Origin: Mesorhizobium sp. SARCC-RB16n
GTDB taxonomy: Bacteria; Pseudomonadota; Alphaproteobacteria; Rhizobiales; Rhizobiaceae
DNA length: 64,000 nucleotides
Assembly: GCF_008520305.1 (NCBI RefSeq)
Contig: NZ_ML703264.1
Span: 373,358-437,357 of the forward strand
Reading direction: 5' to 3'
Shown piece by piece: positions 45,410-63,972 of the stretch (within the stretch, counting starts at the first letter, position 1; each line of letters begins with the position of its first letter). Made by a program: the position numbers and the translations under genes. Under the pieces are notes generated by a model that searched no databases, was not told the origin of the DNA, and saw nothing but the letters and a program-made list of their open reading frames with translations.

Positions 45410-45529
45410 ATGAGCAAGAAGATGCACTCGGGTGGCGACCGGCCGCGTTCCACCTCCGGCTTCAATACCAGAGAGCGCCTGGCGACCGGCAATCGGCGGA
45501 GCGCTGGAATCTCAAGAGGCCGGAGATGA
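45410..45529 (+). pseudogene. Truncated TetR-family regulator (N-terminal fragment)
   Basis: An ATG at 45410 opens a 39-codon frame: MSKKMHSGGDRPRSTSGFNT then RERLATGNRR. The first ~24 residues resemble the start of a TetR regulator just before the helix-turn-helix (typical xTRERLLxAA), but the reading then passes into unrelated residues and stops; no DNA-binding or ligand domain follows. Its 3' end overlaps the end of the convergent iorB gene by 18 bases, so the rest of the gene seems to have been deleted at this junction. Identification as TetR is tentative because so little remains. Confidence 0.5.
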
Positions 45530-47092
45530 TCCCAGTGTTGCCACGGTCTTCAGCGCACCGTCGAGCATGTCGCCCTTCTCGTCCTTGAGCGCCGCCTCGC
45601 GCAGGCGGCGGATCCAGTCGGAGGCGTCGTCGCGGTCCTTGAGCAAGTCGAGAGCTGAGAGTACCCGGTCGAACTTCGACTGGGCGCGGACATGGGTGTC
45701 GCTGTAGCCCTTGATCAGCCGGCGGCAGTTGAGGATTTCGACGGCCAGCGCATAGTCTGAGGGTACGTAGCCAAGCGCCAGCGTATACCAACGTTCCAGA
45801 TGCTCCGTCTCGACCTTGTGACGCAGCAGGCCGCGGCGCCAGCGGCGCAGACCGCCGATGAACCAGAGGGCGGCAAAGCCGGCAAAGCTGTCGGTGCGGA
45901 TGCGGCGGCCACGGTTGATGCGGCGGTCGAGGAAGGCTGCGAGCTTGGGCCGGTTCTCGACGTAGCTGCCGAGCCCCGCCGGCAGCGTGCCGCAGAACTC
46001 CTCGATGCGCGGATGGAAATATTCGGTCACTTGCAGGACCGAATCGTCATTGACGCCAACCTCCTTGCGCACACGCCTGTCACGCGTCGAACGCGTTTTC
46101 AGGTCGGCGACGCGGATCATGTCGTCGTAGCACATGGCATTGGCCAGATGCTTGGCGGCAGCGATGGACAGCGCATGGACATGGTCGACGCCATCCAGTG
46201 CGACGGCCTTGTCCAGCCGGTCGAGATAGTCGCGCCCATAGGCGATGTCCTGATAGTCGACGACCTTTCTCAGGCCGCGAAGCGCCATGTCGCGCACGGC
46301 TCCGGGCATCAGGTCGATGCGAGCGGCCTGGGCCTGCCATCCTTGCAGCAGATTTTGCGGACCGCTGACGCGCCCGGTATCCAGGGTGGATTCGACAATC
46401 GCTGGCTCCCCCGGCTTCGAAGAAGGTGCTGCCGCCACGCCGCGCGCGCGATCGAACGCAGCGCCGAAAGCGGCGAGGCTGGCCTTGACGCCACGGCCGC
46501 CAGTGCCGATCGCCTGCTCATAACTTTCACGGGTAAACGGCAGTGCGTCGGAGCCGGCCAGCGCGCCAAGCAGGCTGGCCGAGATCATCGAGCCGTTGTC
46601 GGCGGCGATCTTCTCCATGTCGAAAGCGATGAAGCGCTTCGATGCGGCTTCCGTCGTCGCGTGGACCTTGGACGACGAGGCGCGGCCGTCACCCGGTTCG
46701 ATCTTTTCCGACACGGCGGCGATGCGATGCGATGAAGCGATCAGAGTGGTGCGCTCGGGCGTGACGAAGCCCCTGATGATCGCACGGCCGGCTTCCATCA
46801 ACTCGGCGGCGATTAATATGTCGACGTCGCCTTGCGAAGGTGACAGGGCGAAGACTGGCAGCCGGCCGGTGTCGCGGGCCATTTCGATATAATAGATCGT
46901 GGCGCCGGTGCGCTGGGCGACGCCGGCGACCGAGGTCGACTGGGCGACATAGCCATTGCGCTCGGCGACATCGGTGATCCAGTCGGCCAGCACGCCGCCG
47001 CCCTGGCCGCCAACCGCCAGCACGGCGAGTTTGATCACCGGCTCATCGGCAGCGCCGGACTTGGGACGCAGGGAAGGAACGGGCTCAAGCAT
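45512..47092 (-). CDS. iorB: Indolepyruvate:ferredoxin oxidoreductase family, beta/gamma-type subunit
   Basis: 526-residue partner of the gene upstream. The N-terminal ~200 residues are the pyruvate:ferredoxin-type gamma domain (IKLAVLAVGGQGGGVLADWI, then AGVAQRTGATIYYIEMA). A long C-terminal extension (from about residue 250) of DUF6537-like character, found in large alphaproteobacterial IorB proteins, has YDDMIRVADLKTRSTRDRRVR. It starts inside the last eight bases of iorA. Together they should decarboxylate an aryl 2-oxo acid to an aryl-acyl-CoA, passing electrons to a ferredoxin-like carrier. Confidence 0.85.
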   Translation of the reverse strand: MLEPVPSLRPKSGAADEPVIKLAVLAVGGQGGGVLADWITDVAERNGYVAQSTSVAGVAQRTGATIYYIEMARDTGRLPVFALSPSQGDVDILIAAELMEAGRAIIRGFVTPERTTLIASSHRIAAVSEKIEPGDGRASSSKVHATTEAASKRFIAFDMEKIAADNGSMISASLLGALAGSDALPFTRESYEQAIGTGGRGVKASLAAFGAAFDRARGVAAAPSSKPGEPAIVESTLDTGRVSGPQNLLQGWQAQAARIDLMPGAVRDMALRGLRKVVDYQDIAYGRDYLDRLDKAVALDGVDHVHALSIAAAKHLANAMCYDDMIRVADLKTRSTRDRRVRKEVGVNDDSVLQVTEYFHPRIEEFCGTLPAGLGSYVENRPKLAAFLDRRINRGRRIRTDSFAGFAALWFIGGLRRWRRGLLRHKVETEHLERWYTLALGYVPSDYALAVEILNCRRLIKGYSDTHVRAQSKFDRVLSALDLLKDRDDASDWIRRLREAALKDEKGDMLDGALKTVATLGSSPAS

Positions 47093-49238
47093 CGGCGAAT
47101 GTCAAGCGGCGGCTTTCGCGCCGCCTCTGCAGGAAGCCGATCGTCGCGCGACGCGTGGCTTCGAGGAAACGATCCCAGCGGCTCGGATTGTGCACGACGT
47201 CGGCGCGATAGAAGGAAGGGCACAGCACCGCCGCATCGGCGACCTCGCCGCAATTGCCGCAGCCGACGCAGTTCTGGTCGATGCTCGCCACCGGATCGTC
47301 GCGCAGCGGATCGTCGAGCGACTTGACCGACAGCGACGGGCAGCCGGACAGCCGCATGCAGGCATGGTCGCCGGTGCAGATGTCTTCGTCGACGCCGAAC
47401 TTCGGCTTGACCACGCGCTCGCCGCCTTTGATCGCCTTGTCGACCAGCGGCTTTTCGCGGCGCTGCCGGTTGAGCATGCACTCGGACGAGGCGACGATGA
47501 CTTTCGGACCCTTCTCGTCCGTCGTCAGTGCCTCGCGCAAGGTGTCCTGCATCTTGCCGACATCATAGGTGCGGTCGACATGGCGCAGCCATTTGACGCC
47601 CATGCCTTTCACCGCCTCGGTGATCGGATGCTTGGTCGACTTGGTCTTGTTGCCCGCACGCGAAGACAGAATGTCCTGCCCGCCGGTCGCGGCCGAGTAG
47701 AAATTATCGACGATGACGATGACGCCGTCGTTCTTGTTGAACACCGCATTGCCGATCGAGGAGGTGAGGCCGTTGTGCCAGAAGCCGCCGTCGCCAACGA
47801 AAGAGATCGAGCGGCGCTTGGCGTCGGGCGAATTGAAGGCGGAGGCCGAGGCCGGCCCCAGCCCATAGCCCATCGTGGTGGCGCCGAGTTCGAACGGCGG
47901 CATGATCGAGAACAGATGACAGCCGATGTCGGAGGCGATGTGGTGCTTGCCGAGCTCCTGCTCGACCAGTTTTGTCGCTGCAAAGATCGGCCGTTCCGGA
48001 CAGCCTATGCAGAAGCCGGGCGGGCGGCCTGGCACAACGTTGATCAGATCAGCCGTGTCGACGCCGTCGCCGACCTTGTTGGGCGCGCGCACCTCGCCCG
48101 GCAAAAGATGCGGCGTTTCAGCGCGCAGGAAGGAGCCGATGCCGTCGAGCATGACCTGGCCGGTGTACTCGCCGGCCATCGGCAGATGCTCCTTGCCGAC
48201 CAGGCGGGTGCCGCGCCCGGCCTTGTGCAGCATGGCGGCAAAGGCCTGCTCGATATAGTTGGGCTGGCCTTCCTCGACCACCAGCACCGCCTGCTTGCCC
48301 TCGCAGAAGGCGAGGAACTCGTCGTCGATCAGCGGATAGACGGCGTTGAGCACGTAGAGCGGCACATCCGTGTCGCCATAGGTGTCGGCAAGGCCAAGCC
48401 GCTGCAGCGCACGGATGACCGAATTGTACATGCCGCCCTGCATAACGATGCCGACCGAGCCGTGATCCGAGCCGAAAAACTCGTTGATCTTGTTCTTGGC
48501 GATGAACTCCACCGCCGCGGGCCAGCGCTTCGTGACCTTCTCCTTCTCGTGCAGGAAAGAGGCGGGCGGCAGCACGATGCGTCCGGTATCGCGGCGGGGC
48601 GCTTCGAGCGCATCGGCCACCGTCATCGGCGGACGCTTGTTGTCCTTGGCGATGAAATGGCCATGCACATGGCAGCAGCGAATGCGCACCTGCAGCATGA
48701 CCGGCGTGTTGGAGATTTCCGACAGCTCGAAACCGTCCTCCACCGCCTTGACGATCGACGGCAGGTTCGGACGCGGATCGAGCAGCCAGACCTGACTCTT
48801 CATGGCGAAGGCATGGCTGCGCTCCTGCATGATCGAGGAGCCTTCGCCATAATCCTCGCCGACGATGATCAACGCGCCGCCGGTGACACCGCCCGAAGCG
48901 AGATTGGCCAGCGCGTCTGAAGCGACATTAGTGCCGACGGTCGACTTGAAGGTCGCGGCACCACGGATCGGGTAATGCACAGAGGCGGCCAGCATGGCGG
49001 TGGCGGTGGCTTCCGAGGCGCTGGCCTCGAAATGCACGCCGAGCTCGCCCAGAATGTCCTGCGCGTCGGCCAGCACGTCCATCAGATGGCTGATCGGCGC
49101 GCCCTGATAGCCGCCGACATAGCCGACGCCGCATTGCAGCAGCGCCTTGGTGATGGCGAGGATGCCCTCGCCGGCGAATTCCTCGCCGGCACCGAGCCTG
49201 AGTTTTTCGACTTCCTTGGCAAAAGACCGTTCGGCCAT
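47085..49238 (-). CDS. iorA: Indolepyruvate:ferredoxin oxidoreductase family, alpha subunit
   Basis: 717 residues. The N-terminal pyrimidine-binding and core domains include YVGGYQGAPISHLMD and FKSTVGTNVASDAL. The thiamine diphosphate motif is GDGGFWHNGLTSSIGNAVFNKNDGVIVIVDN (GDG...N). The C-terminus carries two iron-sulfur motifs (CTGDHACMRLSGCP and CVGCGNCGEV). In characterised archaea this enzyme makes indoleacetyl-CoA from indolepyruvate. In an aerobe the electron acceptor is uncertain. GGAGG lies just before the ATG. Position within the cluster suggests degradation of an indole or aryl 2-oxo acid, which is an inference. Confidence 0.88.
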   Translation of the reverse strand: MAERSFAKEVEKLRLGAGEEFAGEGILAITKALLQCGVGYVGGYQGAPISHLMDVLADAQDILGELGVHFEASASEATATAMLAASVHYPIRGAATFKSTVGTNVASDALANLASGGVTGGALIIVGEDYGEGSSIMQERSHAFAMKSQVWLLDPRPNLPSIVKAVEDGFELSEISNTPVMLQVRIRCCHVHGHFIAKDNKRPPMTVADALEAPRRDTGRIVLPPASFLHEKEKVTKRWPAAVEFIAKNKINEFFGSDHGSVGIVMQGGMYNSVIRALQRLGLADTYGDTDVPLYVLNAVYPLIDDEFLAFCEGKQAVLVVEEGQPNYIEQAFAAMLHKAGRGTRLVGKEHLPMAGEYTGQVMLDGIGSFLRAETPHLLPGEVRAPNKVGDGVDTADLINVVPGRPPGFCIGCPERPIFAATKLVEQELGKHHIASDIGCHLFSIMPPFELGATTMGYGLGPASASAFNSPDAKRRSISFVGDGGFWHNGLTSSIGNAVFNKNDGVIVIVDNFYSAATGGQDILSSRAGNKTKSTKHPITEAVKGMGVKWLRHVDRTYDVGKMQDTLREALTTDEKGPKVIVASSECMLNRQRREKPLVDKAIKGGERVVKPKFGVDEDICTGDHACMRLSGCPSLSVKSLDDPLRDDPVASIDQNCVGCGNCGEVADAAVLCPSFYRADVVHNPSRWDRFLEATRRATIGFLQRRRESRRLTFADA

Positions 49239-49298
49239 CTCTGCCTCCCTCCGTTGCCGCCGACATCCGGCGGCGCGTGCGTTCTAGAATCCTTGTTT

Positions 49299-49346
49299 AT
49301 GCATGTCGTTTCCCCAAAACCGGGTCCACTTTTGGGCGACATGCAT
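49299..49346. repeat. Rhizobial intergenic palindrome, copy 2
   Basis: 48-bp inverted repeat: ATGCATGTCGTTTCCCCAAA on the left, complemented by CTTTTGGGCGACATGCAT on the right. Arms pair over about 18 bp. Like copy 1 (26998-27046) it abuts a minus-strand stop codon, here of the marR gene. Confidence 0.82.
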
Positions 49347-49828
49347 TAGATGTCGTGCTTGCGAATGTTCTTCAGCATCTTCAAAAGCGTCGCGATGAGC
49401 GCTGCATATTCGGCATCGTCGATGTCGTCGAACATGGCCTCGAACGCGTCATGCATGGCCGGCCAGGCGCGGGTGAACTCGGCGCGGCCCTCGTCGGTCA
49501 GGAACACATGGCGGATGCGGCTGTCGGTGACGCCCTGCTCGCGCCGCACGAACCCTTGTCCTTCCAGCGTGTCCAGCGTGCGACTCAAGGTCGACTGCTC
49601 GATCACCGTATAGACCGAGAGGTCGTTGACGGTGACGCCGTCGGTGACCGACAGCACGGCCAGCGTGCGCACCTGCGAAATGCTCAGGCCCTGCTTGCGG
49701 AAATCGTCACGCAAGGTGGCATTGTAGCGGCCCATGATGCGGTTCATCAGATAGGGCGCGAATTGCTGCAGGCCGATCTGACCGAGGGTCGAAATGCGCT
49801 GGCATTTTTCGGCGACCTTCTGTTCCAT
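49346..49828 (-). CDS. MarR family transcriptional regulator (first of two)
   Basis: 160 residues from the ATG at 49828. Winged helix-turn-helix with LSVTDGVTVNDLSVYTVIEQSTLSRTLDTLEGQGFVRREQGVTDSRIRHVFLTDEG. The start overlaps the stop of the flavoprotein gene (TGATG), so the two are co-translated. MarR proteins of this type respond to aromatic acids or their CoA esters. Likely controls the divergent catabolic promoters near 52.5 kb. An intergenic palindrome lies at its stop. Confidence 0.9.
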   Translation of the reverse strand: MEQKVAEKCQRISTLGQIGLQQFAPYLMNRIMGRYNATLRDDFRKQGLSISQVRTLAVLSVTDGVTVNDLSVYTVIEQSTLSRTLDTLEGQGFVRREQGVTDSRIRHVFLTDEGRAEFTRAWPAMHDAFEAMFDDIDDAEYAALIATLLKMLKNIRKHDI

Positions 49829-51399
49829 CACAGCTTCCCCGCCAGCAGGAAACCGGAGCCGCCGCCGAGGCCAGCACCGGGATGGGTCGAGGCACCGATA
49901 TGATGGAGGCTCTTGATGCCGGTCTGGTGGTTGCGGCTGGTCTTGAACGGCCGCCACAGGAACGACTGGTCGATAACAGACGAACCACCATAGGGGTCGC
50001 CGCCGACCAGATTGATGTTCATCGCCTCGAGATCGGCAGGCGAATAGGCGCGGCGCGCGATCACGCTGTCCCGGAAGCCGTCGATATGGCTGGCGAGGAT
50101 GGCTTCGGCGCGATCGGCATAGGCCTCGCGCAGCGCCTCGGTCCATTGTCCATCAGCCGGCGCCTGCAATTTGCCGGCGGCGTCGCCCTTGATGTGGCGC
50201 GGCGCCTCGGGCAGTTGCAGCCAGAGAATCGCCTTGCCTTCCGGGCAGCGCGATGGATCGAGCGCGTGCGGCTGGCCGACACAGAGGGTCGGCACCTCAG
50301 GCAGCATGCCACGCGCCGCCTCGTTGCAGGCCTTTGAGACACCATCAAGTCCCGGCGTCAGATGCAACAGCGCCACCTTGTCGAGGCCCTCGCCACGCCA
50401 GGCCGGTGGCTTGTCGAGGGCGTAGTGGATCTGGAAGTTGCCTTTGCCATAGCGGTATTTCCGCGTCGCTTCGACGTCGTCCTTCGGAGCGTCCTTGCCG
50501 AGCAGACGACCGTAAAGCTGCGTCGGCGTGACCGAGCAGATGACGCTCTTGGTGGCGTGAACCATTTCGCCCGAGGCCAGCTGTACGCCTGTGGCGCGAC
50601 CTCCGTCCAGGAGGATGGAGGCAACGTCCGCTTCGGTGGAAATGACGCCGCCGCGCTCCTTGATGAGCGCCTCGAAAGCCGACAGCAGGTTCTGCGCTCC
50701 GCCCTTGACGATCGGCGCGCCGGCCGCCTCCAGCGCGAAGGCGATCACCTTGGCGATCTGGCCGGAAAAGGCATCTTCCGGGCCAAGCCCGGCATGCAGC
50801 ACCCACGGCGCCCAGAGCGCGCGAACGGTCTCGGACTGATACGTGCTTTCCAGCCAGCCGCGCGCAGGCATCAGCGCGTCGCCGAGAAAGTTGGCAAGCC
50901 CGCGCGGGCCACGCCGCCATGCATCGCCGGCCAGCAGCTTTGCGGTCGGATAGGACCAAAGCGCGCCGCCGAGCAAGCCGAACAGCAGGCCGGCATTGCG
51001 TTCGATGCCGCCGACATCTTCCGCGTGGCGGTCACCGTCTCCGGCCGCGATCCTGTTGAGCGCGGCGATGTTGGCGGCGCGGTCGGTGGCGAGCACCGCG
51101 TGGCTGCCGTCCGGCCGCAGCACGCCGGTCGGTGTGCTGGTATGGCAGAATTCCAGCCCGTGGCGAGCGAGGTCGGCGCCCAGCGCGGCAAAGGCCGGCG
51201 AGGTGATGAACAGCACGAAGGTCGTCGCCATCACGTCGTGGATGAAGCCGGGCGCGGTGATCTCCTCGGTGCGCATGCAGCCGCCGATGCGGTCGTTGCG
51301 TTCGAGAACGAGCACTTTCGCGCCCTTGCCGCCGAGCATCGCCGCGCAGACCAGTGCATTGATGCCGCTTCCGACGATGATGTGATCGGGGGTGTTCAT
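49828..51399 (-). CDS. Phytoene dehydrogenase-like FAD-dependent oxidoreductase (first copy)
   Basis: 523 residues from the ATG at 51399. FAD-binding motif DHIIVGSGINALVCAAMLGGKGAKVLVLERND and the second conserved motif GGCMRTEE. It ends GASTHPGAGLGGGSGFLLAGKL, typical of the phytoene dehydrogenase/CrtI-like clade. No carotenoid genes are nearby, so the substrate is not a carotene; a role in oxidising an aromatic or amine side chain is guessed from context. It is about 30% identical by eye to the protein at 52600-54174, including the INLVGGDPYGGSS motif. It overlaps marR. Confidence 0.85.
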   Translation of the reverse strand: MNTPDHIIVGSGINALVCAAMLGGKGAKVLVLERNDRIGGCMRTEEITAPGFIHDVMATTFVLFITSPAFAALGADLARHGLEFCHTSTPTGVLRPDGSHAVLATDRAANIAALNRIAAGDGDRHAEDVGGIERNAGLLFGLLGGALWSYPTAKLLAGDAWRRGPRGLANFLGDALMPARGWLESTYQSETVRALWAPWVLHAGLGPEDAFSGQIAKVIAFALEAAGAPIVKGGAQNLLSAFEALIKERGGVISTEADVASILLDGGRATGVQLASGEMVHATKSVICSVTPTQLYGRLLGKDAPKDDVEATRKYRYGKGNFQIHYALDKPPAWRGEGLDKVALLHLTPGLDGVSKACNEAARGMLPEVPTLCVGQPHALDPSRCPEGKAILWLQLPEAPRHIKGDAAGKLQAPADGQWTEALREAYADRAEAILASHIDGFRDSVIARRAYSPADLEAMNINLVGGDPYGGSSVIDQSFLWRPFKTSRNHQTGIKSLHHIGASTHPGAGLGGGSGFLLAGKL

Positions 51400-51444
51400 T
51401 GATGATCCCACGGGGCCAGCAGGTAGGCATGCGAGGTCAGCCCT

Positions 51445-51614
51445 CTACGGCGCCCCCCTCTGTCCTGCCGGACATCTCCCCCACGAGGGGGGAGATCGAT
51501 TGCCACGCCGGCTTTCGCCAATCGGCGACGTTGCAAGAATGAGCGAGGCGTCAAAGCTGCCAATCTCCCCCCTCGTGGGGGAGATGTCCGGTAGGACAGA
51601 GGGGGGCGCCGTAG
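51445..51614. repeat. Long inverted repeat pair with inner palindromes
   Basis: Arms 51445-51496 and 51563-51614 are complementary over 52 bp with one mismatch, separated by 66 bp. Each arm itself contains a hairpin (ATCTCCCCC / GGGGGGAGAT). The whole 290-bp stretch between the flavoprotein and cyclase genes has no protein gene. The sequence resembles intergenic elements repeated in rhizobial genomes. Confidence 0.85.
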
Positions 51615-51689: not shown

Positions 51690-52481
51690 CTATTTCCCCG
51701 GCACCAATGCCAGTGCGCGGATCGGGCTGCCGGTGCCGTGCTCGATCTTGAGCGGTGCGGCGATCAGGATCGCGCCCTTCGGCGGCAGCTGGTCGAGATT
51801 GCACAGACTGGCCAGGCCGTAGCGGTTGGCTTTGTGCATCAGCGTGTGCGCCGGGAAGGGCGGCTCCATGCCGCCGGCCTTGCCGGCATCGGTGCCGATC
51901 GTCTCCGAGCCCCAGCCCTTGATGTCCTTGCTGATCAGGAACTGGATGGCTTCGGCCGTCGGGCCGGGCGTGTGCGGGCCGGTTTCGTTGGCATTGAGGA
52001 ACTCGGCTTCCGAGCCGTTGCGCTTGTACCAGTCGGTGCGCATCACCACCCATTCGCCGGCATTGATGGCGCCATGCTTGGCTTCCCAGGCCTTGATGTG
52101 GTCGACGGTGAGCAGGAAATCGTGATCGGCGGCGGCTTCCGTCGAACAGTCGATGACATTGACCGGGCCAATGAAGTTCTGCGCCGGAATGGTGTCCGTG
52201 GCGCCGTCCGGATAGTCCTTGCCGGAGATCCAATGCTGCGGCGCGTCGAAATGCGTGCCGGAATGCTCGCCGAGCTTCAGCCAGTTCCACGCCCACCACG
52301 GACCGTTCTTGTCATAGCGGGAGATCGAGTGAATCTCGACTTTCGGCGTGTCGACGGCAAGCTCCGGCGGCAGCTTGATCAGCGGTGTGTCCGGTCCGAG
52401 CGGCGCCGTCAGGTCGACCACCTTGATGGCGCCGGAAAGGAGTTGGCCGGCGACTTCGCCGAGGAGTTTTTGGGTGTCCAT
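51690..52481 (-). CDS. Cyclase family protein (kynurenine formamidase/isatin hydrolase-like amidohydrolase)
   Basis: 263 residues from the ATG at 52481. Metal-binding motif GEHSGTHFDAPQHW is the HxGTHxDxPxH signature of PF04199, which includes kynurenine formamidase (KynB) and isatin hydrolase, both amide hydrolases of tryptophan- or indole-derived compounds. The C-terminal GTDAGKAGGMEPPFPAHTLMHKANRY forms the second part of the site. It is larger than KynB (about 210 residues). The divergent promoter with the second flavoprotein gene supports membership in the catabolic cluster. Exact substrate unknown. Confidence 0.87.
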   Translation of the reverse strand: MDTQKLLGEVAGQLLSGAIKVVDLTAPLGPDTPLIKLPPELAVDTPKVEIHSISRYDKNGPWWAWNWLKLGEHSGTHFDAPQHWISGKDYPDGATDTIPAQNFIGPVNVIDCSTEAAADHDFLLTVDHIKAWEAKHGAINAGEWVVMRTDWYKRNGSEAEFLNANETGPHTPGPTAEAIQFLISKDIKGWGSETIGTDAGKAGGMEPPFPAHTLMHKANRYGLASLCNLDQLPPKGAILIAAPLKIEHGTGSPIRALALVPGK

Positions 52482-52569
52482 GGTCTCTGTTCCCTCTTGT
52501 CTGACATGATCAAGGCTCGTCTCGGCCCTTAATATCCTACTAGACGAAAACATATGCATCTGCAATTAT

Positions 52570-52583
52570 CTTTAAGCATAAAG
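52570..52583. promoter_or_regulatory. Candidate MarR operator in the divergent promoter
   Basis: CTTTAAGCATAAAG, palindromic in 12 of 14 positions, in the 118-bp region between the cyclase and second flavoprotein genes. A similar sequence is found at 59567-59580. This AT-rich palindrome stands out from the surrounding high-GC sequence. Confidence 0.5.
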
Positions 52584-52599
52584 GAAATGGGAACGGGGC

Positions 52600-54174
52600 G
52601 TGAGCGAGTTCGACGCCATCTTTGTCGGGGCGGGCCACAACACTCTGGCATGCGCCGCGCATCTGGCGCTCAAGGGCTGGAAAACCGGGGTTTTCGAGCG
52701 CAGCGCAACAATCGGCGGCGCCGTCCAGACCCGAGAATTCACCCTCCCCGGCTTCCGCCACGACTTCGGCGCGATGAATCTGAGCCTGTTCGCCGGCTCC
52801 GCCTTTCACCGGAAATATGCAAATGAATTGAAAGCGCAGGGGCTGGAGTTCGCGCCGGTCGCCGACTGTTTCGCCAGCGCCTTTCCGGATGGACACTGGT
52901 TCGGCGTCAGCAACGATCTGGAAAAGACCGCCGGCCGCATGGCTGCCTTTTCAGCCGCCGATGCCGCGACATGGCGCAGGCTGGTCGCCGCCTTCCCGGC
53001 CGAGGCCGAGCATTTGTTCAAGCTGCTGGGCTTGCCGATGAGCGCCCGTGCGCTTGCCGGCACAGCCTGGAACCTGTGGCGCAAGAAGGGTGTTTCCGGC
53101 GCGCTCGACAGCGGCCGGCTGCTGTTGTCGTCGCCGCGCGCGTGGCTGGAGGAAAACTTCGAGTCTCCACACATCAGGGCGACGCTCGCCACTTGGGGAA
53201 TGCATCTCGACTTCGCCCCCGACATCGCCGGTGGCGCCGTGTTTCCCTATCTGGAATCGATGGCCAACCAGAGTTTCGGCATGGTGCTGGGCAAGGGCGG
53301 CGCCGATACCATCATCCGGGCGCTGGCCGGCATGGTGACGTCGGCAGGCGGCAAGATCGTCACCGGCGCCGATGTCGCCGAGATCAAGGTCTCCGGCGGC
53401 AAGGCGACCGGTGTGCGGCTCGCTTCCGGCGAAACGCATACGGCCACCAGGGCGATCATCGCAGGCGTCGCGCCCAAGGCGCTGACCGGCAAGCTGCTGC
53501 CCGGCGGTTCCGGCAACGCCGGCTTCGACATGGCGATGCAAAAATTCCGGCATGCGCCGGGCACAATGATGATCCATCTGGCGCAGGACGACCTGCCGGA
53601 CTGGCGCGCCGGGGCCGAGCTTCGGCAGTTTGCCTATGTGCATCTGGCGCCATCGCTCGACCAGATGGCCCGCACCTATCAGCAGGCGATGGCAGGCATG
53701 TTGCCGGACGAACCGGTGCTGGTCGTCGGCCAGCCGACGGCGGTCGATCCGTCGCGCGCGCCTGCGGGCAAACATGTTCTGTGGGTGCAGGTGCGCATGC
53801 TGCCCGCCGAAATCGTGGGCGACGCCTCGGCCAAGATCGCGCCAGCGCATTGGGACGAGGTCAAGGAGGCCTATGCCGACCGGGTGCTCGACATCATCGA
53901 GACCTACGCGCCAGGCCTGCGAAGCAAGATCCTCGGCCGTGCGGTGTTTTCGCCCATCGATCTCCAGCGCGAGAACCCGAACCTGGTCGGTGGCGACCAG
54001 GTCTGCGGCAGTCATCATCTGTCCCAGAACTTTTTGTTTCGCCCGGCGCGCGGCTATGCCGGCTGGAACACGCCGATCGGCAATCTGCACCTCACCGGCG
54101 CCGCGACATGGCCCGGTGCCGGCACGGGTGCCGCCTCGGGCTTCATGCTCGCGCAACAGCTTGGCGGGAGGTAG
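52600..54174 (+). CDS. Phytoene dehydrogenase-like FAD-dependent oxidoreductase (second copy)
   Basis: 524 residues from a GTG at 52600. FAD motif FDAIFVGAGHNTLACAAHLALKGWKTGVFERSATIGG, and C-terminal LTGAATWPGAGTGAASGFMLAQQLGGR. It is paralogous to the gene at 49828-51399 and shares the N-P-N-LVGGD motif near the C-terminus. The two may act together or on related substrates. First gene of the rightward operon; the binding-protein gene of the transporter follows after 109 bp. Confidence 0.86.
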   Translation: MSEFDAIFVGAGHNTLACAAHLALKGWKTGVFERSATIGGAVQTREFTLPGFRHDFGAMNLSLFAGSAFHRKYANELKAQGLEFAPVADCFASAFPDGHWFGVSNDLEKTAGRMAAFSAADAATWRRLVAAFPAEAEHLFKLLGLPMSARALAGTAWNLWRKKGVSGALDSGRLLLSSPRAWLEENFESPHIRATLATWGMHLDFAPDIAGGAVFPYLESMANQSFGMVLGKGGADTIIRALAGMVTSAGGKIVTGADVAEIKVSGGKATGVRLASGETHTATRAIIAGVAPKALTGKLLPGGSGNAGFDMAMQKFRHAPGTMMIHLAQDDLPDWRAGAELRQFAYVHLAPSLDQMARTYQQAMAGMLPDEPVLVVGQPTAVDPSRAPAGKHVLWVQVRMLPAEIVGDASAKIAPAHWDEVKEAYADRVLDIIETYAPGLRSKILGRAVFSPIDLQRENPNLVGGDQVCGSHHLSQNFLFRPARGYAGWNTPIGNLHLTGAATWPGAGTGAASGFMLAQQLGGR

Positions 54175-55813: not shown

Positions 55814-55829
55814 TCGGCCTGGAATTGCC

Positions 55830-55901: not shown

Positions 55902-56909
55902 ATGCTCCTGCAACGATTCCTGATCCGTCTATTGACGATGCTGGTCACGCTGTTCGGCGTGGCCGTCGTTGTATTCGTGGTCATCCGCGTCGCGCCCGGC
56001 GATCCGATCGCCATGATGCTGCCGCCCGGTGCGACGGATGCCGATATAGCCCGTCTGCGCGCGCTCTACGGGCTGGACAAGACTATCGTCGAGCAATTCT
56101 TCATCTGGCTGTCCGGTGTCGCCAGGGGCGATTTCGGAACCTCGATCTCGCTGCGGCAAGACGTGCTCGGCCTCGTCTTCAACCGGCTGCCGGCCACGCT
56201 GGAGCTTGCCATCGTCGCGCTGGTCATGGCGGTGGCGATCGGCGGCACGACGGCGATCCTCGGCGCGCGCGAGCGCGGCACGGCGATCGAGGCCGGCATC
56301 GACATCGCCAGCGGTGCTGCCCTTTCCATTCCCGATTTCCTCTGGGGCCTGGTGCTGATCCTGCTGTTCGGCGTGCTGGTGCCGATCTTCGACATTTCCG
56401 GGCGCGTGTCGCCGCAACTCGACCTGCCCTTCGTCACCCAGTTCTATTTCTTCGAGAGCCTGCTTCGGCTGCGCTTCGACCTGACCTGGGATCTGTTGAA
56501 GCATATGTTGATGCCGGCGATTGCCTTGGCGCTGCCGCTGGCGGCAATCATCTCGCAGCTTCTCAAACAGTCGCTGAAAGAAGTGCTCGACCTCGATTAT
56601 GTCGTGCTGGCGCGGGTCAAGGGTTTCTCGGAAACGCAGGTCATCCTGCGCGAGGCGCTGAAGAACGCCGCACTGCCGACACTGACCCTGATCGGCGTGC
56701 AATTCACCTTCCTCATCGGCGGCACGGTCATCGTCGAGCGGCTGTTCTCCTATGAGGGCCTCGGCAACATGGCAATCGATGCCGTCATCAACCGCGACCT
56801 GCCATTGATTCAGGGCATCGTGCTGGTCTTCGCGCTGCTGTTCGTGCTGATCAACCTTGCCGTCGACATGATGTATGCGCTGCTCAATCCGAGGCTGCGC
56901 CATGGATGA
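55902..56909 (+). CDS. ABC transporter permease (DppB type), cluster-associated
   Basis: 335 residues. Begins LLQRFLIRLLTMLVTLFGVAVVVFVVIRVAPGDPI, then LRALYGLDKTIVEQFFIWLSGVARGDFGTSISLRQ, both DppB-type. The EAA loop reads YVVLARVKGFSETQVILREALKNA. Stops after NLAVDMMYALLNPRLR. It overlaps the next permease gene by eight bases. Confidence 0.93.
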   Translation: MLLQRFLIRLLTMLVTLFGVAVVVFVVIRVAPGDPIAMMLPPGATDADIARLRALYGLDKTIVEQFFIWLSGVARGDFGTSISLRQDVLGLVFNRLPATLELAIVALVMAVAIGGTTAILGARERGTAIEAGIDIASGAALSIPDFLWGLVLILLFGVLVPIFDISGRVSPQLDLPFVTQFYFFESLLRLRFDLTWDLLKHMLMPAIALALPLAAIISQLLKQSLKEVLDLDYVVLARVKGFSETQVILREALKNAALPTLTLIGVQFTFLIGGTVIVERLFSYEGLGNMAIDAVINRDLPLIQGIVLVFALLFVLINLAVDMMYALLNPRLRHG

Positions 56910-57750
56910 GGCACGCATTTCGCGGCGCGGATGGAGCCCGAGGCTGTGGCTGGCCGGCGGCTGGCTGCTCATCGCGTTGCTGGCGGCGATCTTCGCGCCG
57001 CTGGTGGCGCCGCAGGATCCGCTGGCACAGGATTTGATGCTGGAGCGTTTGCCGCCGTTCTGGCTCGATGGCGCAGAGCCCGGCTATTGGCTTGGCACCG
57101 ACAGCCTCGGCCGCGACCTGCTCTCGCGCCTGATTTTCGGCGGCCGCATCGCCTTCATCGTTGCTTTCGCGGCGGCCAGCGCCGCCTGCCTCGTCGGTTC
57201 GACGCTGGGACTGATCGCGGGCTATTTCGGCGGCTGGGCCGATCGCATCATCTCGCGCATCGTCGACATCTGGATGGCGTTCCCGCCTGTGCTGTTCGCC
57301 ATCCTGCTGGTGGCCGTGCTCGGCACCGGCCTCAGCTCCGTCATTCTCGCCATCGCGATCATCGACTGGACGCGTTTCTGCCGGGTCATCCGCGCCGAAG
57401 CCATGGGCCAGTCGCGCATGGACTATGTCGAGAATGCCCGCATTGCCGGCTACGGCCGTATCGGCATCATGCTGCGCGAGGTGCTGCCCAATGTTGTGCC
57501 TTCGATCGTGGCGCTGCTGTCGCTGGAAATGGGCATCGCCGTCATCGTCGAGGCGATCCTGTCCTTCGTCAATCTGTCGATCTCGACCGATGATCCGACC
57601 TGGGGCGGCATCATCGCCGAGGGCCGGCTGTCGATCCATCAAGCCTGGTGGGTGTTGGTGTTTCCGCTGGTCACGCTCATCCTCACCGTATTGTCATTCA
57701 GCCAGTTCGGCGAAGCGCTGAAGTCGCGTTTCGATCCGGTGCTGCGATGA
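56902..57750 (+). CDS. ABC transporter permease (DppC type), cluster-associated
   Basis: 282 residues from the ATG at 56902. First helix WLAGGWLLIALLAAIFAPLVAPQDPL, then YWLGTDSLGRDLLSRLIFGGR, the DppC loop, and EAA region RVIRAEAMGQSRMDYVENARIAG. Ends FSQFGEALKSRFDPVLR. It overlaps both neighbours (8 and 4 bases). Confidence 0.93.
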   Translation: MDEARISRRGWSPRLWLAGGWLLIALLAAIFAPLVAPQDPLAQDLMLERLPPFWLDGAEPGYWLGTDSLGRDLLSRLIFGGRIAFIVAFAAASAACLVGSTLGLIAGYFGGWADRIISRIVDIWMAFPPVLFAILLVAVLGTGLSSVILAIAIIDWTRFCRVIRAEAMGQSRMDYVENARIAGYGRIGIMLREVLPNVVPSIVALLSLEMGIAVIVEAILSFVNLSISTDDPTWGGIIAEGRLSIHQAWWVLVFPLVTLILTVLSFSQFGEALKSRFDPVLR

Positions 57751-58625
57751 GCGCCTGCCTCGACATCGCCAATCTGAGCGCCGTGCTGGCCAACGGCCAA
57801 CGCGTGCTGCGCTCTGTTTCGCTCACCGTGCAACCCGGCGAGGTGCGCGCGCTGGTGGGTGAGAGCGGCGCCGGCAAGACGATGATCGGCAAGGCGGTGC
57901 TTGGCGTCCTGCCATCGAGCGTGAGCATCGTCGAGGGCGATATGCGGCTCGAGGGCGAGGACCTCGGCAAGCTTCCACCGAAGGCACGGCGCGCGCTGAT
58001 CGGCGCGCGCACGGCGCTGATCCCGCAGGATCCGCTGACCGCGCTCAACCCGTCGCGCCGCATCGGCCCGCAGATGACCGACCGGCTGGTGCGCATTCTC
58101 GGCTGGAGCGGCGACGGGGCCGATCGGCGGACCCGCCAGTTGCTGGACGAGGTGCAGATCCGCGACCCCGACCGCGTGCTGAAAAGTTATCCGCACGAAT
58201 TGTCCGGCGGCATGCGCCAGCGCGTGCTGATTGCGGCGGCCTTTGCCGCCGAGCCACGGCTGATCGTCGCGGACGAGCCGACCACGGCGCTCGACGTCAC
58301 CGTACAGAAACAGATACTTCGGCTGATCGCCGCCTTGCAGCGCGAGCACGGCACCGCGATCCTGTTCGTCACCCATGATCTCGGCGTCGTTGCCAAGATC
58401 AGCCAGAAAGTGTCGGTGCTCTATGCCGGCAAGGTGGTGGAAGAGGCCGGGACGGCTGATCTCTTCGCCGCACCTCGGCATCCGTACACCCGGGCGCTGA
58501 TGGCTGCGACGCCGCGCTACACCGATCCCTTCGCTTCGCTGAAGCCGGTGGACGAGACGGTGCTGGCCGGACTCGCCGCCGAGATCGCCGCCGCCGACCA
58601 GGCCTGGAGGCGCCCGAATGGCTGA
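57747..58625 (+). CDS. ABC transporter ATP-binding protein (DppD type), cluster-associated
   Basis: 292 residues from the ATG at 57747. Walker A VGESGAGKTMIGKA, signature LSGGMRQRVLIAAAF, Walker [15 protein letters not shown], switch VTHDLGVV, and C-terminal RHPYTRALMAATPR extension. The start overlaps the permease stop (ATGA) and the next ATPase overlaps by eight bases. Confidence 0.93.
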   Translation: MSACLDIANLSAVLANGQRVLRSVSLTVQPGEVRALVGESGAGKTMIGKAVLGVLPSSVSIVEGDMRLEGEDLGKLPPKARRALIGARTALIPQDPLTALNPSRRIGPQMTDRLVRILGWSGDGADRRTRQLLDEVQIRDPDRVLKSYPHELSGGMRQRVLIAAAFAAEPRLIVADEPTTALDVTVQKQILRLIAALQREHGTAILFVTHDLGVVAKISQKVSVLYAGKVVEEAGTADLFAAPRHPYTRALMAATPRYTDPFASLKPVDETVLAGLAAEIAAADQAWRRPNG

Positions 58626-59436
58626 GCCGCTGTTTTCCGTCCACGGGCTGAAGGTCGCGCTGCCCGACATGACGCGCAAGCCACTGATCGGCCGCGCACC
58701 TTTTGCCGAGATTCTGAAAGGCCTGGATTTCGACCTGCCCAAGGGCTCGGTCACGGGCATCGTCGGCGAATCCGGGTCCGGGAAATCGACGCTCGGCCGC
58801 GCGCTGGTGCGGCTGCTGGAGCCGAGCGCCGGCAGCATCCGTTTCGAGGGCCGCGATATCACCCATCTGCCGGAAGCGGCACTGCGGCCGCTGCGCTGCG
58901 ACCTGCAGATGATCTTCCAGGATCCGATGTCGTCGCTCAACCCGCGCCGCACCATTGCCAGCATCATCGCCGCACCGCTCAAGCAGAACGGGCTTGGCGA
59001 CAAACTGAAGACGCGCGTCGCCGAGGCACTGCAACGCGTCGGCCTGCCGCAAAGCTTCGCCGGCCGCTACCGCCACCAACTGTCGGGCGGCCAGCGCCAG
59101 CGCGTCGGCATTGCGCGCGCGCTGGCGCTGTCACCGAAATTCGTGCTGGCCGACGAGATCGTCTCCGGGCTCGACGTCTCTACGCAGGCGCAGATCCTCA
59201 CCCTGCTGGAAAAGCTTGCCGCGGAGATGGGCCTGACGGTCGCCTTCATCAGCCACGATCTGTCGGTCATCCGGCGACTCTGCCAACAGGTGATCGTCAT
59301 GCGCGAGGGCAGCATCGTCGAGGCGAGCGCCACGGACGCGCTGTTCGACAATCCCAGGGAGACTTACACGCGAGACCTGCTTGCCGCCATTCCGCTTCCC
59401 GAGATCGACGCGGACTGGCTGCGGCCGCCCGCATAA
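58618..59436 (+). CDS. ABC transporter ATP-binding protein (DppF type), cluster-associated
   Basis: 272 residues. Walker [17 protein letters not shown], signature [15 protein letters not shown], a Walker B of the form FVLADEIVSGLDVST (DEIVSGLD in place of the usual DEPTSALD) and switch ISHDLSVI. Last gene of the transporter; 198 bp follow before the monooxygenase gene, containing a candidate operator but no other gene. Confidence 0.92.
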   Translation: MAEPLFSVHGLKVALPDMTRKPLIGRAPFAEILKGLDFDLPKGSVTGIVGESGSGKSTLGRALVRLLEPSAGSIRFEGRDITHLPEAALRPLRCDLQMIFQDPMSSLNPRRTIASIIAAPLKQNGLGDKLKTRVAEALQRVGLPQSFAGRYRHQLSGGQRQRVGIARALALSPKFVLADEIVSGLDVSTQAQILTLLEKLAAEMGLTVAFISHDLSVIRRLCQQVIVMREGSIVEASATDALFDNPRETYTRDLLAAIPLPEIDADWLRPPA

Positions 59437-59566
59437 GACTTTTCATCGCGCAGACCCAAGGCCGGCGTGCTCCTGTTCGGCTCAATCGGTGCGGCGGCGC
59501 CGGCTACGCCTGCAGGACGTTGCGCAAGCGCCACCCAAGGCCTGGATAATCATTTCGACATAAAAC

Positions 59567-59580
59567 TTTAAGCTTGAAAT
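59567..59580. promoter_or_regulatory. Candidate MarR operator upstream of the monooxygenase gene
   Basis: CTTTAAGCTTGAAA matches 11 of 14 positions of the candidate site at 52570-52583 and includes a palindromic TAAGCTT(A) core. It is 54 bp before the ATG of the monooxygenase gene in an AT-rich patch, suggesting that these genes have their own regulated promoter. Confidence 0.45.
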
Positions 59581-59634
59581 ATCTTACCTCCGGCGCGATA
59601 CTGAGGCATAGCAAGCGAAGAGGAGATCGCACAG

Positions 59635-61929
59635 ATGAAGGTTGCGGTTCTCGGCGGCGGACCAGCCGGCCTCTATTTCGCCATTTCGATGAAACTGAGG
59701 GACGCCGCGCACGACGTGACGGTTTTCGAGCGCAACCGCGCCGACGACACGTTCGGCTGGGGCGTGGTGCTCTCGGCCGAGACTCTCGACAATCTTGCGA
59801 AGAATGATCCGGTCAGCGCGGTCTGGATCAAGAAGCATTTTGCCTATTGGGACGACATCGCCGTCATCCATGACGGCGTGCGCACGGTTTCGTCGGGCCA
59901 CGGCTTCTGCGGCATCGGCCGTAAGCGTCTGCTGGTCCTCTTGCAGCGGCGCGCGCGCGAACTCGGCGTCAAGCTGATGTTCGAAACCGACATCGCCGAC
60001 CCCCTGCCCTATATGGAGACGCATGATCTGGTCGTCGCCGCCGACGGGTTGAACTCCAGGGCGCGCAATACCTTCGTCGATATCTTCAAGCCCGACATCG
60101 ACACGCGCAAATGCAAGTTCGTGTGGCTGGGCACCAACCAGAAATTCGACGACGCTTTCACCTTCATCTTCGAAAAGACCGAGCATGGCTGGGTGTGGGC
60201 GCACGCCTACCAGTTCGACAGCGACACGGCGACCTTCATCGTCGAGTGCAGCGAACAGACCTGGGCTGCCTTCGGCTTCGGTGCGATGTCGCAGCAGGAA
60301 TCGATCGCTGTCTGCGAACGCATCTTCGAAAAGCATCTCGGCGGCCACGCGCTGATGACCAATGCCAACCACATCCGTGGCTCGGCCTGGATCAATTTCC
60401 CGCGCGTTTTGTGCGAGCGCTGGTCCTACAAGAACCTCGCGCTGATGGGCGACGCGGCGGCCTCGGCGCATTTCTCGATCGGCTCCGGCACTAAACTCGC
60501 CCTGGAAAGTGCGGTGGCGCTGGCCGAGTACGTCGAAACCGAACCCGATCTCGAGGGCGCGTTCCGTAGATATGAGGATGCTCGCCGCACCGAGGTGCTG
60601 AAGCTGCAATCAGCGGCGCGCAATTCGCTCGAATGGTTCGAGGAGGTGGAGCGCTATCTCGGCCTTGATCCGGTGCAGTTCAACTATTCGCTTTTGACCC
60701 GTTCGCAACGGATCAGCCACGAGAATCTTCGGTTGCGAGACGCCGAGTGGCTGGGCAGAGCGGAAGAATGGTTCCAGCGCCAGGCCGGCGCCGGCGGCAA
60801 CAGGCTGCGCCGAGCGCCGATGTTCGCGCCCTTCAAGCTGCGCGACCTCAGCCTCAACAACCGCGTCGTCGTTTCGCCGATGGCGCAGTACAAGGCCGTC
60901 GACGGCTGCCCGACCGACTGGCATTTCACCCATTATGCCGAGCGCGCCAAGGGCGGCGCCGGACTCGTCTATATCGAGATGACCTGCGTCAGCCCGGAAG
61001 GGCGCATCACGCCCGGCTGCCCCGGATTTTATGCGCCGGAACATGAAGTGGCCTGGAAGCGACTGGTTGGTTTCGTTCATACCGAAACCGAAGCCAGGAT
61101 TTGCGCCCAGATCGGCCATTCCGGCGCCAAGGGTTCGACCCGTATCGGTTGGGAAGGCACCGACGTGCCGCTGGCTTCGGGCAACTGGCCCGTCATGGCG
61201 GCATCGGCCGTCGCGTGGTCGCCTGAGAACCAGATGCCGAAGGCGATGGACCGCGCCGACATGGATTTGGTGCGCGATCAATTCGTGGCCTCGGCCGAAA
61301 TGGCCGATCGTTGCGGCTTCGACATGCTCGAAATCCACGCCGCCCACGGCTATCTCCTGTCGTCCTTCATCACGCCGGTCACCAACCGGCGCACGGACGC
61401 CTATGGCGGTTCGCTGGAAAACCGCATGCGCTATCCCCTGGAAATCTTCCACGCGGTGCGCGCCGCCTGGCCGGCGGGAAAGCCGATCTCGGTGCGCATT
61501 TCGGCCAATGACTGGGTCGGGATCGAAGGCGTGACGCCGGCAGATGCCGTCGAGATCGCTGGGATGCTGCACGAGGCCGGCGTCGATATCTGCGACGTAT
61601 CGGCCGGCCAGACCTCGGTTGCCGCCAAGCCGGTCTATGGCCGCATGTTCCAGACACCGTTCTCGGACCGCATCCGCAATGAGGTCGGCATGGCGACCAT
61701 GGCGGTCGGCAACATCTACGAGCCCGATCATGTCAATTCGATCCTTATGGCCGGCCGCGCCGACCTGGTGGCGCTGGCACGGCCGCATCTCGCCGATCCC
61801 TACTGGACGCTCCATGCGGCGGTGACGCTCGGCGACCGTGGCGTCAGATGGCCGGATCCCTATCTGCCCGGACGCGACCAGCTCTACCGGCTGGCAGAGC
61901 GCGACGCGGCCGCGGGGCTGAAAGTATGA
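59635..61929 (+). CDS. Bifunctional 2-aminobenzoyl-CoA monooxygenase/reductase-type enzyme (annotated in relatives as salicylyl-CoA 5-hydroxylase/oxidoreductase)
   Basis: 764 residues with two modules. Residues ~1-380 are a flavin monooxygenase: [20 protein letters not shown], then [15 protein letters not shown] and [18 protein letters not shown]. Residues ~395-760 are an old-yellow-enzyme reductase: [54 protein letters not shown] and [13 protein letters not shown]. The fusion and length match 2-aminobenzoyl-CoA monooxygenase/reductase of Azoarcus, which dearomatises anthraniloyl-CoA aerobically. Salicylyl-CoA is an alternative substrate. It overlaps the SDR gene by four bases (ATGA). Confidence 0.88.
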
Positions 61930-62699
61930 CGACGTCGGCGACACTCCACGGCAAGCACGCGCTGGTCACCGGCGGCGGATCCGGCGTCGGCCGGGCCATC
62001 GCGTTCACCTTGGCCGAGGCTGGTGTCGACGTGACCATATGCGGGCGCCGCGAAGCTGAACTCGCCAGGGTTGCCGGCGAAAACGGCCGCATCCATGGCA
62101 TTGTCGCCGACGTCACCGATGAGGCGGCGATGGCGGCGCTCTACACGCAAGCGGAGGCCGCGCGCGGACCGTTCGACATCGTCATCGCCAATGCCGGCAT
62201 GGCCGGCAGCACGCCGGCGCACAAGACCTCGCTGGCCGATTGGCAGCGGACGCTCGACGTCAATCTGACCGGGGCCTTCCTGACGGTGAAGCCGGCGCTG
62301 CCCGGCATGGCCGCGCGCAAGGCAGGCCGCATCGTCTTCATCGCCTCGACCGCCGGACTGAAAGGCTACGCCTACGTCGCGCCTTACGTCGCGGCCAAGC
62401 ATGGCGTTGTCGGCCTGATGCGGGCGGTGGCCGCCGAGACGGCGAAATCCGGCGTCACCGTCAACGCGGTGTGCCCGGGCTTCGTCGAGACCGACATGCT
62501 GGAAGAGTCCATCCAGCGCATCATCGAAAAGACGGGCCGCTCGGCAGAGCAGGCGCGAGCGAGCCTTGTCTCGACCAATCCGCAAGGCCGTTTCATCCAG
62601 CCGCAGGAGATTGCCGAAGCCGTGCTGTGGCTGTGCGGTGATGCGGCGCAATCGATCACCGGACAGGCGATTTCGATCTCGGGAGGTGAAACATGGTAG
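61926..62699 (+). CDS. SDR family oxidoreductase
   Basis: 257 residues from the ATG at 61926, overlapping the previous stop. Cofactor motif [17 protein letters not shown] motif at VIANAGMAG; catalytic Ser in [10 protein letters not shown] and YVAAK as Tyr-x-x-x-Lys. The fold is complete with a C-terminal [10 protein letters not shown]. Possibly a 3-hydroxyacyl-CoA-type dehydrogenase of the pathway. Coupled to the monooxygenase and followed by marR with a seven-base overlap. Confidence 0.9.
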
Positions 62700-63163
62700 C
62701 CGGCCCCCTGCCCGTGCCATCGGGACCCGGCAAGGACCGGCTGCGTCTTTGGATCAGGCTGCTGCGTGCCTCGCGCACGATCGAGGCCGAACTGCGCGAG
62801 CGCCTGAAGAAAGAATTCGATACGACGCTGCCGCGCTTCGACGTCATGGCAGCACTCTACCGGGCGCCGGAAGGCATGCTGATGAGCGACCTGTCGCGCT
62901 TCCTGCTGGTGTCCAACGGCAATGTCACCGGCATTGTCGACCGGCTCGTGTCGGAAGGACTCGTCGCCCGTGCGCGCCGCAATGGCGACCGCCGCACCTC
63001 GATGGTGCGGCTTACCGAGGAAGGCACGAAGTCCTTCGCGACAATCGCCGCCGCGCATGAGGGCTGGATCGGTGAATTGCTGGGCAAGGTCAGCGAGGAG
63101 GATGCGCGCCGGCTGACCGGCATGCTGACCTCGTTCCGCAGCAACTGGGAGGGACGCGAATGA
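62693..63163 (+). CDS. MarR family transcriptional regulator (second of two)
   Basis: 156 residues. Winged helix: [57 protein letters not shown]. The long N-terminal helix has [36 protein letters not shown]. It overlaps the SDR stop and the next start (ATGA), so it is part of the catabolic operon and probably senses an aromatic CoA ester of the pathway. Confidence 0.92.
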
Positions 63164-63972
63164 CTGCAATGGCCGGCCTCAAGCCGAAGCATTTCCTCTG
63201 GGAGGTCGAAGGCAGGATCGCCAAGGTCCGGCTCGACCGGCCGGAGCGCAAGAACCCGCTGACTTTCGAAAGCTATGCGGAACTCCGCGACACGTTCCGC
63301 GACCTTGTCTATGCCGACGATATCGACGCCGTGGTGTTCCTCTCCAACGGTGGCAATTTCTGCTCCGGCGGCGATGTCCACGACATCATCGGGCCGCTAG
63401 TCAAGATGGACATGAAGCAACTCCTGGCCTTCACCCGGATGACCGGCGACTTCGTCAAGGCGATGCTCAATTGCGGCAAGCCGATCATCGCGGCGGTGGA
63501 TGGTGTCGCGGTCGGCGCCGGCGCCATTATCGCCATGAGCGCCGACATCCGCATCGCCACGCCGGAAGCCAAGACGGCGTTCCTGTTCACCCGCGTCGGC
63601 CTTGCCGGCTGCGACATGGGCGCCTGCGCGATCCTGCCGCGCATCATCGGCCAGGGCCGCGCCGCCGAATTGCTTTACACCGGCCGGACCATGACGGCTG
63701 ATGAAGGCGAGCGCTGGGGATTCTACAACAGGCTGGTAGCGGCAGACGCACTCGAGGCCAACGCGCTCGACATGGCGGCGCGCATCGTCTCCGGCCCGAC
63801 CTTCGCCCACGGCATCACCAAGACGCAGCTCAACCAGGAATGGTCGATGGGCCTGGACCAGGCGATCGAGGCCGAAGCGCAGGCGCAGGCGATCTGCATG
63901 CAGACGCGCGATTTCGAGCGGGCGTATCGGGCTTTCGTGGCCAAGGAAAAGCCGGTGTTCGAGGGGAATTGA
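63160..63972 (+). CDS. Enoyl-CoA hydratase/isomerase family protein
   Basis: 270-residue crotonase-fold enzyme. Oxyanion-hole sequences are visible as [17 protein letters not shown] and [25 protein letters not shown], with [22 protein letters not shown] following. The conserved catalytic Glu of enoyl-CoA hydratase is not obvious in the last segment (GCDMGA), so it may be a hydrolase or isomerase type. Overlaps marR by four bases. Expected to act on ring-reduced CoA intermediates. The remaining 28 bases of the window hold nothing further. Confidence 0.9.

Follow-up and report, generated by a model that had tools for sequence, protein, structure and literature searches.

A conserved Mesorhizobium gene cluster with a proposed isatin route to anthraniloyl-CoA

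We analysed a 64,000-nt stretch of Mesorhizobium sp. SARCC-RB16n DNA (NCBI RefSeq assembly GCF_008520305.1, contig NZ_ML703264.1, positions 373,358 to 437,357, forward strand; the whole stretch is hereafter the window), in which a divergent gene cluster occupies positions 45512 to 63972. Families were assigned by Pfam, NCBIfam, and PDB searches. The cluster probably degrades isatin formed from an imported oxidised indole, by way of an IorAB-type oxidoreductase to anthraniloyl-coenzyme A (CoA) and then a fused flavin adenine dinucleotide (FAD) monooxygenase/old-yellow-enzyme reductase (ABMO). In the pathway that gene content suggests, a Dpp-type importer might take up the precursor, an oxindole- or dioxindole-like oxidised indole, and two dehydrogenases of the carotenoid-desaturase fold (FAD1 and FAD2) might oxidise it to isatin, these two steps being the weaker ones. 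Isatin hydrolase would open isatin to isatinate, and IorAB, with thiamine pyrophosphate (TPP) and a 4Fe-4S centre, would oxidatively decarboxylate isatinate with CoA to anthraniloyl-CoA and CO2, which is the main claim made here; because IorAB would make the acyl-CoA directly, no CoA ligase would be spent. ABMO would then hydroxylate and reduce anthraniloyl-CoA, and SDR, enoyl-CoA hydratase (ECH), ACDH, and RidA proteins would complete ring breakdown by beta-oxidation-like steps. A MarR regulator (MarR1) would govern the divergent core via a 30-bp element, with the ABMO operon as an adjoining module under its own MarR2.

The cyclase gene (51690..52481, minus strand, ATG at 52481) encodes a PF04199 protein with the metal motif HxGTHxDxPxH, 71.3% identical over 258 aligned residues to the crystallised isatin hydrolase LaIHB (PDB 4j0n; E 6e-128); the motif is kept in 79/79 hydrolase homologues from the 80 loci described below. 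Homology supports the protein well as a type B isatin hydrolase, an enzyme that converts isatin to isatinate (PMC6117287; this and all later papers are cited from part of their text). LaIHA (5nnb) aligns end to end (583 bits) with the iad-operon cyclase of Roseibium aggregatum. Kynurenine formamidase was rejected as the identity of the window cyclase (TIGR03035, 34.6 bits; cut-off, 223.05). The first-pass annotation had placed the protein in the isatin hydrolase/kynurenine formamidase range, which narrows here to isatin hydrolase, and because of the 71% identity to the crystallised enzyme its indolepyruvate reading of the cluster is replaced by the isatin route.

The hydrolase gene is part of an 11-gene divergent core, iorB-iorA-MarR-FAD1-isatin hydrolase on the minus strand and FAD2-Dpp-type importer on the plus strand, with a 118-bp gap between hydrolase and FAD2 (52482-52599). 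Eighty loci were found by means of FAD2 (52600..54174, plus strand), and the 65 with at least 8.5 kb to the left and at least 7.5 kb to the right of FAD2 were judged; the other 15, L078 among them, were excluded for their short flanks. A gene was scored as present above 45% identity and 60% coverage, except MarR1, for which any identity sufficed. All 11 core genes occur in 64 of the 65 judged loci and 10 in the remaining one, and because of this the cluster, judged by gene content, is a real, conserved catabolic cluster and not a chance assembly. FAD2 is 84 to 94% identical in 65 of the 80 loci (62 of those 65 are Mesorhizobium). Among the 56 judged loci with FAD2 above 75% identity, 55 have the full core and one has 10 genes, and 53 also carry two or more of the four genes in the ABMO module. 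A distant group outside the Mesorhizobium group (FAD2, 62 to 67% identity) has the complete core in 9/9 loci. Tritonibacter has the same 11 genes, Alloyangia has both modules in a different gene order, and in L078 a crotonase 82% like that of the window adjoins the core, where the ABMO module may thus lie too. Since the core is intact in nearly all loci and ABMO is absent beside the distant cores, the core behaves as a single unit in inheritance, and the ABMO module as a neighbour separate from it. Every gene that the first-pass annotation listed is present, with its order, coordinates, and family upheld by open reading frames, Pfam, NCBIfam, and PDB matches, and annotated relatives, and the complete loci bear out the co-occurrence in other genomes that it had proposed as a check. 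Separate inheritance of the halves, which it had named as contrary evidence, applies to core and ABMO, which are separable outside the Mesorhizobium group; it does not apply to IorAB, hydrolase, FAD pair, and importer, which are conserved together and share a predicted operator in Sulfitobacter.

The iorB-like subunit (IadB-type; 45512..47092, minus strand) joins a POR domain to DUF6537 (PF01558 and PF20169) and exceeds the cut-off of NCBIfam NF006179 (700.7 versus 348 bits). The iorA-like subunit (IadA-type; 47085..49238, minus strand) is a TPP/4Fe-4S protein with a Pfam TPP_enzyme_C domain, and the two together are our proposed isatinate:CoA oxidoreductase. IorAB-type enzymes convert a 2-oxoacid and CoA to an acyl-CoA, and isatinate (2-aminophenylglyoxylate) is an aryl 2-oxoacid. 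A PDB sequence search with IorA gave 0 matches at E 0.1. The first-pass annotation had IorAB convert indolepyruvate to indoleacetyl-CoA, so that the cluster would connect oxidation of the tryptophan side chain with anthraniloyl-CoA metabolism, a CoA ligase being encoded close by. Related proteins do carry the name indolepyruvate oxidoreductase, by annotation transfer, and IorA does match TIGR03336 (indolepyruvate ferredoxin oxidoreductase alpha), but its 274.1 bits fall far under the cut-off of 650.9, the cluster genes include neither an aminotransferase nor a ligase, and the IorA clade is linked to isatin hydrolase; we regard the indolepyruvate assignment as very unlikely.

That clade emerges from a tree of 68 IorA proteins (midpoint root; part of the rows were picked via FAD2), which left out L096 (a Variovorax plasmid with iorA in two pieces) and L194 and held no Variovorax or Bradyrhizobium IadA. 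All rows beside hydrolase, iad, or thioesterase genes fall within one 32-row clade (support, 100), in which the seven C-terminal Cys of IorA are invariant (32/32); it holds the window IorA together with iorA adjoining iad genes (L093 and L142). We also surveyed 289 genomes of the class, with the IorA family taken at E 1e-150 or better and a strong hydrolase relative at 271 bits or more, a cut placed in hindsight, once the scores were seen to drop from there to 130 bits. The IorA family occurs in 42 genomes (47 matches) and the strong hydrolase in 9, all 9 of which have IorA (P 1.3e-8, kinship uncorrected); in the 13 survey genomes with a weaker cyclase, IorA occurs in 0. Ten survey genomes belong to the IorA clade, and in the four of these with a strong hydrolase the genes are adjacent in 4/4 (P 8.5e-5, kinship uncorrected). 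Minimal operons of cyclase-MarR-iorA-iorB are found in Sulfitobacter and Paracoccus, G206 has iad genes, hydrolase, iorAB, and the ABMO operon together, and in Azospirillum iorAB head an iad operon that runs on into ABMO. In L090, L094, L095, and L098 a thioesterase gene comes after iorAB, and genes for a cupin, FAH, a carbon-nitrogen hydrolase, and a racemase lie nearby; the cupin of L095, at 330, stays under the gentisate 1,2-dioxygenase cut-off (442). These contexts suggest another lower pathway, via a hydroxylated anthranilate.

MarR1 (49346..49828, minus strand; Pfam MarR; top PDB matches, 3cjn at E 7e-43 and 7kym at E 3e-22) lies within the core, and from the position of its gene it probably binds the 30-bp element and controls both arms. 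The element (52,540-52,569, no strand assigned; CTAGAC-N8-WTGCRTNTGCAANTAT), a predicted MarR1 operator or promoter element, is conserved in Mesorhizobium and Rhodobacterales, whose gaps otherwise differ. A matrix trained on 19 sites, one from the window and the others from 18 of the 80 loci, detects it in 79/80 loci, the exception starting at FAD2. Outside the training sequence, Sulfitobacter indolifex and S. dubius, close kin that count nearly as one, have it between FAD1 and FAD2 (score, 42.3) and again before a separate hydrolase-MarR-iorAB operon about 64 kb away (41.8), against a maximum of 7.5 in five first-order random sequences of 238 kb. Because the element precedes both separated halves in these two species, the core is, by this predicted site, one regulon. 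Paracoccus saliphilus (14.5) and Alloyangia (11.6) have weaker matches in the corresponding position, and Paracoccus SMMA_5_TC has no match scoring 10 or more. Across the 289 genomes the element pattern with at most one mismatch occurs only in the three with FAD2; two mismatches add one match (G262) versus 2 from the reversed control, and three mismatches, in six genomes, add three versus 2 control matches. The pattern search revealed no second regulon member beyond the cluster in G001 to G004, and an inverted-repeat scan of the divergent gap gave no consistent palindrome.

ABMO (59635..61929, plus strand) matches NF006101 over its full length (residues 1-760) at 1257.4 bits, above the cut-off of 1078. 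That family covers both ABMO and salicylyl-CoA 5-hydroxylase, and from genomic context 2-aminobenzoyl-CoA is the proposed substrate. The operon continues on the plus strand with SDR (61926..62699; Pfam/NCBIfam and operon context), MarR2 (62693..63163; top PDB match, 3boq at E 4e-24), and the crotonase ECH (63160..63972; NF006107, 481.3 bits versus a cut-off of 330) and extends beyond the right edge of the window, where ACDH and RidA come next in 4/4 Mesorhizobium genomes, followed by an unrelated importer. Structure 3boq aligns end to end with the MarR adjoining an iorAB-thioesterase set in R. pomeroyi.

The first-pass annotation expected a 2-aminobenzoate-CoA ligase past that edge, and no aminobenzoate-type CoA ligase lies within 13 to 15 kb in any of four Mesorhizobium relatives. 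The failed prediction is informative. Counting as ligase a benzoate-CoA-ligase-like gene with at least 50% identity to that of Alloyangia, we found one in 17 of 20 unlinked ABMO loci (no iorAB in the stretch; the best 20 unlinked of 55 ABMO matches), 14 times adjoining ACDH and three times following ECH; two of the three without it are short contigs. The substrate of this ligase is only inferred, because its score of 365.5 narrowly misses the benzoate-CoA ligase cut-off (375.25). Among iorAB-linked ABMO loci, 9/10 have no ligase (L093, L095, L142, L149, L153, and L099 to L102; Fisher P 1.3e-4 versus 3/20). By lineage, with four Mesorhizobium taken as one and L149 and L153 as sisters, absence is 5/6 versus 3/20 (P 0.0045). 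The IadF-type AMP ligase of L093 and L142 (25 to 26% identical to the counted ligase) was not taken as an ABMO ligase, and L163 and L164, with ABMO-like proteins of 37 to 42% and no ligase, were excluded from the count. In two Mesorhizobium genomes the aminobenzoate-type CoA ligase adjoins kynureninase, away from ABMO (L226 and L227), one of them also with tryptophan 2,3-dioxygenase.

The upstream part of the route is a guess, namely that FAD1, FAD2, and the importer handle an oxindole-type substrate. FAD1 (49828..51411, minus strand), 38% identical to FAD2, shares with it the carotenoid desaturase/ketolase (CrtI/CrtO) fold, and both score under the curated cut-offs of NF045689 (FAD2, 215.5; FAD1, 167.4; cut-off, 1000) and TIGR02734 (137.4 and 102.8; cut-off, 238.1). 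A PDB sequence search with FAD2 gave two distant matches; the nearest solved folds to its predicted model are carotenoid desaturases, protoporphyrinogen oxidases, and amine oxidases, neighbours that, for a model, do not settle the substrate. The importer, all on the plus strand, comprises a Dpp/Opp-type solute-binding protein (54284..55813; family-library and PDB matches), two ABC permeases (55902..56909 and 56875..57750), and two ABC ATPases (57747..58625 and 58618..59436), the permeases and ATPases being named by conserved place and match to annotated genes of relatives, without a family-library run. The binding protein begins (window 54284-54380) with an RR-containing, possibly Tat-type signal. 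In most Mesorhizobium-group loci the importer and ABMO are separated by a VOC-family gene, which is missing here (window 59436-59635); a VOC relative is present in 60/80 loci, in a few elsewhere in the locus, and six other short-gap loci also have none.

Alternatively, the FAD pair and importer would handle some other nitrogen compound, with a related cyclic amide as the substrate of the hydrolase. The ligands of Dpp-type binding proteins are usually larger, and relatives of the FAD1/FAD2-importer set are found apart from the hydrolase, both in Sulfitobacter, beside hydroxyproline genes, and on Mesorhizobium loti plasmid pML2037 (L081). This plasmid carries another FAD2-importer set, followed at some distance by a FAD1 relative, in the company of genes for molybdenum hydroxylase, amidohydrolase, and RidA; no hydrolase or iorAB occurs in the 31.6 kb covered. 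The identity to the published isatin hydrolase, the element common to the separated halves in Sulfitobacter, and an indole-monooxygenase-type gene near the core in three relatives, with a flavin reductase and SDR (the G005 protein has 7z4x as top PDB match), speak against such a non-indole substrate, which we think quite improbable.

Several observations weigh against the isatin pathway as a whole. PDB sequence and fold comparison gave no characterised homologue showing the role of FAD1/FAD2. Six of the 10 survey genomes in the IorA clade have no strong hydrolase, and 7/32 clade rows have no recognised partner. In 5/9 hydrolase genomes (G069, G189, G191, G283, and G285) IorA comes only from outside the clade and lies on a different contig from the cyclase, which sits in a thiolase-SDR-cyclase operon; whole-genome co-occurrence therefore mixes two groups, so that direct evidence on the proposed IorAB step comes only from adjacency within the clade. 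Alloyangia (L097) has both iorAB and the ligase, and the IorA of L149 and L153 is outside the clade, without which ligase absence is 4/5 lineages versus 3/20 (P 0.012). G002 to G004 have a ligase elsewhere in the genome, another possible reason for its absence at the cluster. The element was not found before the ABMO operon, and the ABMO module is in the flank of 0/9 fully covered core loci outside the Mesorhizobium group. Finally, a nine-gene iadC-K2 segment restored anthranilate in Variovorax (PMC12633357); published numbering (iadA, gene 72; iadC, gene 70) puts iadA/iadB outside it, so IadAB would not be needed for anthranilate there.

Some of these points would fit two modules that are neighbours only, the core yielding anthranilate or anthraniloyl-CoA for other uses and the ABMO operon serving tryptophan via kynureninase and a ligase. 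Besides the nine flanks without ABMO and the element that the modules do not have in common, this is favoured by G002 and G004, where the ligase adjoins kynureninase. Against it, G001, a Mesorhizobium with the whole cluster, lacks a ligase at a limit of E 1e-60 and a kynureninase at a limit of E 1e-40, the iorAB-ABMO linkage recurs in other lineages, and ABMO is present in 32/42 IorA genomes versus 53/289 overall. We consider mere neighbourhood unlikely and keep the isatin route with ABMO as its lower part, and with it the destination of the first-pass annotation, an importer-fed indolic route ending at anthraniloyl-CoA and ABMO; the way there changes from side-chain oxidation to isatin opening, with the IorAB step as the main open claim.

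A bolder extension, which we put forward tentatively, is that IorAB/IadAB of the clade are a new isatinate:acceptor oxidoreductase (anthraniloyl-CoA-forming) serving iad degraders and this cluster in place of the ABMO-pathway ligase, with FAD1 and FAD2 acting in succession from oxindole to dioxindole to isatin. The compound C8H7NO3 accumulates strongly only in strains overexpressing the whole iadC-K2 segment (PMC12633357); by our own reckoning this is the formula of isatinate, and its accumulation would fit a missing isatinate-consuming step. The literature, mainly titles and abstracts with subscription papers outside the scope, gave no assignment of an IorAB-type enzyme to isatinate; the iad papers examined, in the parts covered, assign no step to iadA/iadB, and that part of PMC12633357 does not mention iadA. 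If true, the proposal would give iadA/iadB a concrete, testable job and would predict that anthraniloyl-CoA metabolism can be entered without a ligase; it also suggests that oxidised indoles, perhaps plant auxin breakdown products, can be used by many Mesorhizobium species, which are plant symbionts.

Among known systems, LaIHA and LaIHB share the metal motif with the window hydrolase, and no difference bearing on function was seen. The order ABMO-SDR-MarR2-ECH-ACDH is that of 9/17 ligase-bearing loci examined, which differ in having the ligase gene, whereas the operon in the window has none and adjoins the isatin core. The flavin monooxygenase and SDR of iif-type indole degradation are absent from the cluster, with similar genes near the core in the three relatives mentioned; a search of G001 to G004, run without a positive control genome, gave no indole monooxygenase match, and the WHOP/iif-type route (PMC12538310) does not fit the cluster. 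The first-pass annotation knew of no described pathway with exactly this set of genes, which needs qualifying: iorAB are the iadA/iadB genes, exclusive markers of auxin-degrading iad loci, whose intermediates include isatin, isatinic acid, and anthranilate (PMC9613470). The iad loci of Variovorax, Bradyrhizobium, and Ruegeria have the Rieske oxygenase IadCDE, ligase IadF, and thiolase IadG, none of which the cluster has (the best IadD match in G001 to G004 is 38% over part), and because the IadDE Rieske oxygenase is not among its genes we do not class it as an iad locus. Variovorax IadI, which carries a kynurenine formamidase annotation and may be a broadly acting amidase (PMC12633357), is by position the counterpart of the isatin-hydrolase-type cyclase of the Roseibium iad operon. 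Where iad loci have a B-III binding protein (PMC10374108), the cluster has a Dpp-type one and an added FAD pair; an isatin-hydrolase-type cyclase and MarR control are common to both.

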